From Chitinophagales bacterium (GTDB lineage: Bacteria; Bacteroidota; Bacteroidia; Chitinophagales; Chitinophagaceae): a stretch of 64,000 nucleotides of DNA. Where the stretch lies: the NCBI GenBank assembly GCA_025353485.1, contig JANXQO010000172.1, positions 1 through 64,000 of the forward strand, read 5' to 3'. Shown piece after piece: positions 11,915 through 14,737 of this stretch; positions within the stretch are counted from its first letter, which is position 1, and each line of letters opens with the position of its first letter. The translations under genes were made by a program, and so were the position numbers. The notes under the pieces were generated by a model, which worked only from the letters and a program-made list of their open reading frames with translations, ran no database searches and had not been told where the DNA came from.

Positions 11915-12622
11915 TCATGTTTTCTGAGGTGAAAAAATCGTATTTAATTTTTCATCATTATCCTCTATTGTTTCAGGAAGCGAAAAGCATAAATAAAAAA
12001 TAGTATTGCTTTTCGCAATGTCCATGCTTTCGTAATGTGTTTTAATTTTTAGTTCGGCTGTAATGTTCTCATTTTTATAAAGATCATTAATATCAGAAAC
12101 AGTTTTTAAATCATATAAGTCTATCACTGTTTTGGTAAAATGATAAAGATCCGGCGAATCTGTCTTAAGATGTATTAGTCCATTGGGTTTTAAGAATTGA
12201 GTATACAATCTCAAAAATTTTGGATGCGTTAATCTTTTTCTTGTTTTTGATTTACGCAAATACGGATCGGGGAAGGTTATCCATATTTCAGCGACCTCAT
12301 TTTTACTAAAATATTGGTTTATCTTATTTATCTGTGTTCTTAAAAAACCAACATTCATCATTTTACAGGCCAAAGCAATTTTAGCTCCTGCCCACATTCT
12401 GTTGCCTTTTATGTCAACACCTATAAAATTTTTATCCAAATAGAGTTTCCCCAATCCAACTGTATATTCTCCTTTACCACATGCCAGTTCTAAAATAATT
12501 GGATTATCATTTTTAAAAAATTCATTCCATTTTCCCTGCATGTTTTCAGGGTACTCCATCACGTTTGCAAATGATTTTATTTCTTTAAAACGAATAAGTT
12601 TTTTTTGTGCCATGGCTTGCAA
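11915..12622 (-). CDS. trmB: tRNA (guanine-N7-)-methyltransferase
   Basis: ELACGKGEYTVGLG, IWITFPDPYLRKSKTRKRLTHPKFL; start probably the second Met. Confidence 0.93.
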   Translation of the reverse strand: MQAMAQKKLIRFKEIKSFANVMEYPENMQGKWNEFFKNDNPIILELACGKGEYTVGLGKLYLDKNFIGVDIKGNRMWAGAKIALACKMMNVGFLRTQINKINQYFSKNEVAEIWITFPDPYLRKSKTRKRLTHPKFLRLYTQFLKPNGLIHLKTDSPDLYHFTKTVIDLYDLKTVSDINDLYKNENITAELKIKTHYESMDIAKSNTIFYLCFSLPETIEDNDEKLNTIFSPQKT

Positions 12623-13906: not shown

Positions 13907-13951
13907 TAAAAAACCGTTAACACTTTGGTTATAAAATGTTAACGGTTTTTT
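13907..13951. terminator. Bidirectional intrinsic terminator downstream of the tRNA-like RNA
   Basis: AAAAAACCGTTAAC...GTTAACGGTTTTTT, 10-bp perfect stem with A/T tracts on both sides. Confidence 0.85.
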
Positions 13952-13954
13952 AAG

Positions 13955-14125
13955 CTGTAGGGGGAGGGATCGAACCTCCACGAGGCAGTTAGCTATAGCA
14001 CAAAGTTCAGTGGTCGACCCTGGTCGAATCAGTATTGCTACCGAGACGGCTCTATGCTACGTTTGTCCTGTTATCCTCACCCCCGAGACAAGAGGGTATG
14101 TCTGCCAAAATTTCATCACCCCACA
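13955..14125 (-). ncRNA. tRNA-like RNA with 100-nt structured variable region, Leu-like D arm and anticodon-position GUC
   Basis: Acceptor TGTGGGG/CCCTACA (7 bp), D arm TG-ATG-AAATTTTGGCAGA-CAT, anticodon-like stem CCCTC-TTGTCTC-GGGGG, T arm GGAGG-TTCGATC-CCTCC; followed by terminator. Confidence 0.8.
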
Positions 14126-14148: not shown

Positions 14149-14156
14149 CAAATCTA
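14149..14156 (-). promoter_or_regulatory. Candidate Bacteroidota -7 promoter element (TAnnTTTG) for the tRNA-like RNA
   Basis: TAGATTTG on minus strand, 23 nt upstream of the mature 5' end; no well-spaced -33 TTTG seen. Confidence 0.4.
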
Positions 14157-14263: not shown

Positions 14264-14737
14264 ATGGCAGCCAAATTAAATCTTGACAAATTAGATCTCC
14301 AGATAATTCATGAAATGCTTCATGGAGATGACCTTCCTTATGCCGAGTTAGGCAAAAAATTATTCGTTAGCGGAGGTACAATCCATGTTCGTATAAAAAA
14401 ACTGGAAGAACTTGGGATTGTACAAGGAAAAAAAATTAGGGTAGATCTAAAGCAATTGGGATATGATATCACTGCTTTTGCGGGAATTTTTTTAGAAAAA
14501 AGTTCTTTGTACGATGCAGTTGCAAAAGAACTTGAACGCATTCCGGAGATTGTAAGATTGAATTATACAACTGGTAATTACAGTATGTTTATTGAAATAG
14601 TTTGTAAAGACATAAACCAGCTTCGCTCAATTTTACATGACGATCTACAAAATATAAAAGGGATAGAAAGAACAGAAACATTTATTTCTTTAGATGAAGG
14701 ATTCAACAGGAATGTACAAATTGCTTCTAAAGAATAA
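14264..14737 (+). CDS. Lrp/AsnC family transcriptional regulator
   Basis: N-terminal HTH plus AsnC ligand-binding domain. Confidence 0.88.
   Translation: MAAKLNLDKLDLQIIHEMLHGDDLPYAELGKKLFVSGGTIHVRIKKLEELGIVQGKKIRVDLKQLGYDITAFAGIFLEKSSLYDAVAKELERIPEIVRLNYTTGNYSMFIEIVCKDINQLRSILHDDLQNIKGIERTETFISLDEGFNRNVQIASKE

Follow-up and report, generated by a model that had tools for sequence, protein, structure and literature searches.

The tRNA-like RNA gene and its neighbours

The window analysed in this study is a stretch of 64,000 nucleotides from a Chitinophagales bacterium (assembly GCA_025353485.1, contig JANXQO010000172.1). On its minus strand it carries a gene for a tRNA-like RNA which is preceded by a promoter element and a boxA-like sequence, followed by an intrinsic terminator and flanked by a divergently oriented gene for an AsnC-type regulator (Table 1). 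A preliminary description had reported a complete minus-strand cloverleaf between 14125 and 13955, with a -7-like element upstream and a terminator behind it. All of these are present, the acceptor, D, anticodon and T stems comprising 7, 3, 5 and 5 bp, respectively. Upstream of the homologues, TAnnTTTG was found in 33 of 53 cases (7.7 in shuffled sequences) and GTTCTTW in 21 of 53 (2 in shuffled sequences). Between the anticodon and T arms lie about 100 nt in the window RNA and roughly 40–110 nt in its relatives. The C following position 73 also occurs in the ordinary tRNA genes of the window genome.

Table 1. Coordinates of the tRNA-like RNA, its structural parts and neighbouring features in the window.
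Feature	Position	Strand	Remarks
tRNA-like RNA	13955..14125	(-)	mature form, position 1 to G73, by analogy to tRNA; comparative evidence
C74	13954	(-)	follows discriminator G73
5′ acceptor strand UGUGGGG	14119..14125	(-)	U1 = 14125; U1, G2, U3 invariant or nearly so
3′ acceptor strand CCCUACA and discriminator G73	13955..13962	(-)	CCCUACA 13962-13956; G73 13955
D arm	14098..14116	(-)	3-bp stem AUG 14116-14114 / CAU 14100-14098; loop with G18G19, Leu-like
Anticodon arm	14080..14096	(-)	5-bp stem CCCUC 14096-14092 / GGGGG 14084-14080
Anticodon loop UUGUCUC	14091-14085	(-)	G34 U35 C36, U37, C38
Extended variable arm	13982..14078	(-)	P1 GAGG 14078-14075 / CCUC 13985-13982; P2 CAG 14070-14068 / CUG 13988-13986
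Internal loop	13989..14067	(-)	GAYAAA 14067-14062 opposite CUAA 13992-13989; conserved; closing pair C14061-G13993 covaries
Variable apical hairpin	14022..14049	(-)	GCAA tetraloop 14038-14035; variable in length and sequence; helix retained in the genomes compared
Apical motif GACCAGGGUCGACCACU of long forms	14009..14025	(-)	conserved in compared genomes
T arm GGAGG-UUCGAUC-CCUCC	13963..13979	(-)	5-bp stem; position and covariation alignment
Bacteroidota -7 promoter element TAGATTTG	14149..14156	(-)	24 nt upstream of the RNA
boxA-like sequence GTTCTTAAAAATT	~14137-14125	(-)	after the -7 element
Intrinsic terminator	13907..13952	(-)	AACCGTTAACA stem and T run; directly downstream of the RNA
AsnC-type regulator gene	14264..14737	(+)	divergent; HTH and Lrp/AsnC ligand domain
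TrmB gene	11915..12622	(-)	1.3 kb downstream of the RNA

The closest solved relative of the regulator, which has an Lrp/AsnC ligand domain, is AsnC of E. coli (1.7e-30; Lrp 7.4e-9). The motif YTTGxY is kept, and the best NCBIfam match is AsnC with 153.7 bits, which is below the AsnC equivalog cut-off of 227. In E. coli, asnA codes for asparagine synthetase and is activated by AsnC only in the absence of asparagine (PMC4482635). The E. coli asnC-asnA pair likewise consists of an AsnC-type regulator beside a divergent gene, but there this gene encodes an enzyme making asparagine, whereas here the RNA gene occupies its slot, and asnA is absent from the window genome and its genus.

Among the matches listed, the divergent regulator gene lies immediately upstream of the RNA in 53 of 80 named loci, in a constant arrangement and at a median distance of 152 bp; of the 27 other loci, several are second loci or break off too close to the RNA for the neighbour to be seen. 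No other neighbouring family recurs, the next one being found in 12 of the 80 named loci among the matches listed. The regulator was detected at E ≤ 6.5e-43 in 30 of 30 RNA-bearing genomes versus 4 of 39 RNA-less genomes, the latter being 40 genomes minus the regulator-positive G044, which carries the RNA. For the AsnC-type gene of the RNA-less genome G062 stops had been reported, but its translation shows an intact gene, so that the idea of a pseudogene was rejected.

In Cyclobacteriaceae, the RNA copies at L109, L113, L145 and L159 lie apart from the AsnC-type gene and are flanked by a pseudouridine-synthase-like gene on one side and a membrane-protein-like gene of very large size on the other. 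The cluster containing the TrmB gene of the window was found near the RNA in 5 of 80 named loci among the matches listed; TrmB is the tRNA m7G46 methyltransferase, which acts on the variable loop. In 11 named loci among the matches listed, including L176, the RNA is followed at a median distance of 131 bp by a co-oriented gene resembling long-chain acyl-CoA synthetases.

Distribution and structure of the RNA family

ARAGORN called neither a tRNA nor a tmRNA at the RNA in the window. No Rfam family was matched at the gathering level, and hits with E ≤ 10 were weak miRNA-like matches only, mostly on the terminator. The RNA thus fits no Rfam family. By DNA search it was found in most genomes of the genus and family of the window genome, about 30 of the family and usually with one copy each; the matches in further families of the order were partial, and shorter forms and tandem copies occur there. 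A covariance model run over 297 genomes of the phylum detected members above 90 bits in 31 genomes including that of the window; matches of about 85 nt with 45–63 bits in most Bacteroidota, which were not counted as members, are probably ordinary class II tRNAs, namely tRNA-Leu by length and score. A pattern scan of named genomes added, among the matches listed, members in Chitinophagaceae, Saprospiraceae, Sphingobacteriaceae, Cyclobacteriaceae, Hymenobacter, Dyadobacter/Spirosoma, Fulvivirga and one Ignavibacteriales genome; in these loci the covariance model recognised at least 105 copies, plus one spurious match. The family thereby has members in Chitinophagales, Sphingobacteriales, Cytophagales and Ignavibacteria. 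No matching tRNA-like RNA of Bacteroidota was found in the mainly open-access literature covered, and the family appears to be undescribed. Whatever its mechanism, it is a structured RNA family spanning several Bacteroidota orders that is absent from Rfam 15 and missed by tRNA finders.

The single-sequence thermodynamic fold was unremarkable (z -1.28; 21 of 200 shuffles as good). Since the folding energy is not unusual for the composition, the case rests on comparison. In an alignment of 24 diverse members with 29 pairs, 99.4% of the cells were paired, and 13 of the 29 pairs showed changes on both sides, which none of 500 shuffles equalled; slid controls were near 50%. Covariation extends into the variable arm, where it comprises five of the seven P1 and P2 pairs as well as the pair closing the internal loop. 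Every form has P1 (4 bp), followed by a short asymmetric loop and P2 (3 bp), and then the internal loop GAYAAA/CUAA. Beyond it, the arm is a short hairpin in Mucilaginibacter; in Chitinophagaceae and others it is a long stem bearing the motif GGGU(U/C)GACCAC and a hairpin that in most cases has a GNRA cap. In relatives, a conserved, unpaired-looking motif GACC(A/G)GGGU(U/C)GACCAC(U/C) lies beside the hairpin of variable length.

The idea of a tRNA-like molecule with a long, structured variable arm, put forward in the preliminary description, is therefore carried by both comparison and covariation. The two apical hairpins proposed there, TCGAC-CAGG-GTCGA and GCCG-TCT-CGGT, have to be given up as a conserved fold: relatives form one long stem and a hairpin, and the TCGAC/GTCGA pairing is broken in L015 and L023, for example. 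An 8-bp acceptor as in tRNA-Sec or tRNA-His was also considered, as C or U at position -1 stands opposite G73 in the first 24 sequences, but this position is A in 19 of 105 copies among the matches listed, so that the acceptor has 7 bp.

It had also been proposed that the RNA is neither a tmRNA nor interrupted by a group I intron, and both points held. An intron or other insertion in a tRNA gene was rejected, as the extra segment covaries and every genome compared has it as a conserved part of the RNA; a disrupted tRNA gene is further excluded by intact Leu and Asp tRNA genes elsewhere in the genome. A tmRNA, which is likewise a tRNA-like, non-standard, conserved and stable RNA, differs by the lack of an anticodon stem, by its Ala identity and by its tag ORF. 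The RNA has an anticodon arm and no RF00023 match, and the window genome possesses a separate tmRNA of its own; a replacement for tmRNA was rejected as well.

Another reading is a regulatory small RNA that would have a tRNA fold for stability only and act by base pairing via its variable arm. Its own promoter and terminator and a variable arm differing between genera would suit such an RNA; however, the parts possibly available for pairing are the least conserved ones, acceptor and anticodon loop are the most conserved, and the co-occurrence with GatCAB described below would be left unexplained, so that we regard this explanation as very improbable.

In genome G215 of a Saprospiraceae-like family, parts of the variable arm and of the T arm recur at one locus (L050) about 150–500 nt after the RNA, amid other repeats, as if a mobile element had targeted the RNA gene or carried pieces of it.

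Decoding features and acceptor determinants

The RNA has several marks of a tRNA, namely a 7-bp acceptor, a 5-bp T stem, a T loop with UUCRA, and G18G19. A decoding tRNA has a variable region of 4–24 nt, a match to RF00005, and U33 and a purine at position 37 in a 7-nt loop. In the RNA family the variable region is far longer and RF00005 was not matched; position 33 is U, C or G in 105 copies among the matches listed and A in a further lineage (L062, L065), and position 37 is U, C or G, never A. The anticodon stem of Sphingobacteriales copies contains a constant U-U mismatch, and the window genome has normal tRNA-Asp and Leu tRNAs. Judged from its sequence, the RNA is not a decoding tRNA, given the variation at position 33 and the constant lack of A at position 37, which strengthens the earlier suspicion of a non-translational role. 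A functional but odd tRNA decoding GAC/GAU, either allo-tRNA-like or stress-specific, would account for the full cloverleaf with GUC in register; against the variation at positions 33 and 37, the Sphingobacteriales mismatch and the ordinary tRNA-Asp, we rate it as the least probable of the explanations considered here. Allo-tRNAs and selC-like tRNAs are also unusual bacterial RNAs with long variable arms and have GUC among their anticodons, but they combine acceptor/T stems of 8/4 or 9/3 bp with Ser identity and can decode (PMC7609411). The RNA has stems of 7/5 bp, as opposed to 8/4, 9/3 or 8/5 bp in allo-tRNAs and tRNA-Sec, a far larger arm and an altered loop.

Conservation at the acceptor end is almost complete: among the matches listed, U1 was found in 104 of 105 copies, and G2, U3, A70, C71, A72 and G73 in all 105. 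None of U1-A72, G2-C71, U3-A70 and G73 was part of the search pattern. Almost every copy has G34, U35, C36 and C38, with C34 in 3 of 105 among the matches listed; the anticodon letters in this set were partly forced by the search pattern, and the fewer copies found by covariance model and BLAST show the same letters. CUC replaces GUC in L116, L124, L148 and L063, belonging to Hymenobacter, Ekhidna and genome G223, the last being without GlnRS. The CUC copies are possibly a Glu/Gln version of the RNA.

The bacterial Asp identity set comprises G73, G10, G34, U35, C36 and C38; U1-A72 makes Asp-tRNA a substrate for amidation, whereas G1-C72 and U20a prevent this (PMC9976931). U1-A72 has also been named as amidation determinant elsewhere (PMC4206432). 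The RNA has G73, G34, U35, C36 and C38 of the Asp set; position 10 is A, U or G, and G1-C72 is missing, its place being taken by the bacterial GatCAB determinant U1-A72. In the window genome, tRNA-Asp has G1-C72, the Leu tRNAs have G1-C72 or A1-U72, and tRNA-Asn has U1-A72. By these nucleotides, the RNA would join most of the AspRS identity to the GatCAB determinant which tRNA-Asp is without.

LeuRS needs A73 (PMC9976931), and the RNA has G73 in 105 of 105 copies among the matches listed. With tRNA-Leu it shares the type of D loop and the class II layout, with tRNA-Asp G73, GUC and C38; it differs from both by the variable arm of 40–110 nt, U1-A72, non-U33 and a non-purine at position 37. The Leu-like body with GUC that had been described is thus correct as far as D loop and anticodon are concerned. 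Charging as Leu is not supported, since G73 stands in place of A73 and the elements in the anticodon loop are those of Asp, not of Leu. Three features that had not been covered before point to Asp/Asn chemistry, namely the neighbouring AsnC-type gene, the invariant U1-A72 pair and the co-occurrence with GatCAB.

Co-occurrence with GatCAB and a proposed role in asparagine synthesis

If the RNA is a substrate of amidation, every genome carrying it must have GatCAB. This prediction was set before the phylum sample, though suggested by a first look at relatives. GatB was found in 31 of 31 RNA-bearing genomes and in 3 of 19 RNA-less genomes of the same class. Two of these three (G098 and G129) are without GlnRS and therefore need GatCAB for Gln-tRNA; in the third (G048), the end of the contig is reached after about 225 bases of the expected RNA slot. 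Most carriers possess GlnRS, and among the GlnRS-positive genomes of the class GatB was present in 27 of 27 with the RNA versus 1 of 13 without it (Fisher 2e-9, no tree correction; kinship was handled by counting families only). Outside the class, GatB is common without the RNA, usually where GlnRS is absent. Seven genomes there have GlnRS and GatB with no RNA detected (G072, G073, G081, G089, G150, G204, G224), so that GatCAB can be kept for other reasons; these genomes may use either tRNA-Asn-based asparagine synthesis or a divergent RNA missed by the search.

The window genome encodes one bacterial-type AspRS, LysRS, AsnRS, GlnRS (712 bits) and GatB. As AspRS, AsnRS and GlnRS are present, GatCAB is not needed there for Asn-tRNA or Gln-tRNA. 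The combination of AsnRS, GlnRS and GatCAB has been flagged as puzzling and in need of a function (PMC4206432).

We lean slightly towards the RNA being a dedicated non-decoding acceptor for RNA-dependent asparagine synthesis under the AsnC-type regulator. When asparagine is scarce, the regulator would activate the divergently oriented RNA gene, just as AsnC activates asnA in E. coli, and the transcript would be trimmed and CCA-tailed in the manner of a tRNA. AspRS would charge the RNA with aspartate via G73 and the GUC/C38 loop, and GatCAB would amidate this aspartate to asparagine, accepting the RNA because of U1-A72, where tRNA-Asp has G1-C72. The loop with non-U33 and non-purine 37 together with the large variable arm may keep the Asn-loaded RNA with its Asp anticodon out of translation. 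Asparagine would then be released or handed on, the releasing enzyme being hypothetical. The absence of G10 and G1-C72 and the CUC of the Hymenobacter and Ekhidna copies count against this acceptor reading.

Similar chemistry is known from tRNA-dependent asparagine synthesis in Deinococcus, Thermus and Bdellovibrio, where a non-discriminating AspRS and GatCAB, which reads U1-A72, act on tRNA-Asn. In those bacteria, a relaxed AspRS uses the decoding tRNA-Asn (GUU) as acceptor, whereas the RNA described here is a separate molecule with GUC, a long variable arm, no decoding features and an AsnC-type neighbour. Amidation by GatCAB on tRNA-Asn is known; a separate non-decoding RNA for this purpose would be new. 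Aminoacylated RNA also serves outside translation in the case of dedicated non-proteinogenic tRNAs, such as tRNA-Gly for peptidoglycan in Staphylococcus; these are near-normal isoacceptors, none of which is known to have the architecture of the RNA or a link to GatCAB.

In another reading, the RNA would be a scaffold holding AspRS and GatCAB together to act on ordinary tRNA-Asn. RNA-containing AspRS-GatCAB transamidosomes have been described for Thermus (reviewed in PMC9976931), and the U1-A72 of tRNA-Asn in the window genome fits. This genome, however, has AsnRS and a single AspRS that scores as aspS_bact, not as aspS_nondisc, and C36 of the RNA suggests an enzyme wanting tRNA-Asp; we consider a scaffold unlikely. 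Still less likely is the carrier principle proposed above with glutamate and glutamine, i.e. with GluRS and GatCAB. U1-A72 also serves the amidation of tRNA-Gln (PMC9976931), CUC of the Hymenobacter-type copies is a Glu anticodon, and GlnRS is missing in G223; nearly all copies, though, have GUC, C38 and G73, the regulator is AsnC-like, and tRNA-Glu of the window genome has A73.

The main rival of the acceptor reading involves the same enzymes. The RNA could be a sensor or decoy, charged or merely bound by AspRS and GatCAB; its charging state or abundance would then regulate these enzymes or AsnC, and the RNA would not supply asparagine in quantity. The AsnC linkage, the AspRS and GatCAB determinants and the co-occurrence fit this equally well, a strong-looking promoter and a boxA-like leader would suit a titrating RNA, and many carriers have asnB-like genes. 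A pure decoy, however, would have no need for such strict conservation of the acceptor end (U1-A72, G73, C74), and GatB and the RNA were apparently lost jointly, although translation could be served by GlnRS and AsnRS. Both are missing in separate families, namely in two genomes of the family of the window genome (G172 and G076), in G038 of a second family, and in G062 and G179 of a third. This joint loss despite GlnRS and AsnRS suggests that GatCAB exists for the RNA and not the reverse. We hold a sensor or decoy to be rather improbable.

As to the supply of asparagine by other routes, several AsnB-like proteins above the cut-off were found in the window genome and also in many other RNA carriers, so that an RNA route need not be essential. 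In G037, which has two RNA copies, GatB and GlnRS, neither AsnA nor AsnB was above the cut-off at a completeness of 97%. G038 has AsnA, which is absent in its 20 compared relatives, lacks GatB and has kept the AsnC-type gene.

Our judgement is evenly balanced on the broader proposition that Bacteroidota use an asparagine-regulated non-decoding RNA to turn AspRS and GatCAB into an asparagine synthase, and that many of them keep GatCAB for this reason despite AsnRS and GlnRS. If true, an amino acid would be synthesised on a purpose-made RNA, with tRNA-dependent amidation separated from translation. This would show RNA at work as a metabolic carrier in living cells and would explain the combination of AsnRS, GlnRS and GatCAB.

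At the corresponding locus of G038 (L224), promoter-, boxA- and terminator-like sequences are kept upstream of the AsnC-type gene, and the RNA is replaced by an unrelated sequence.
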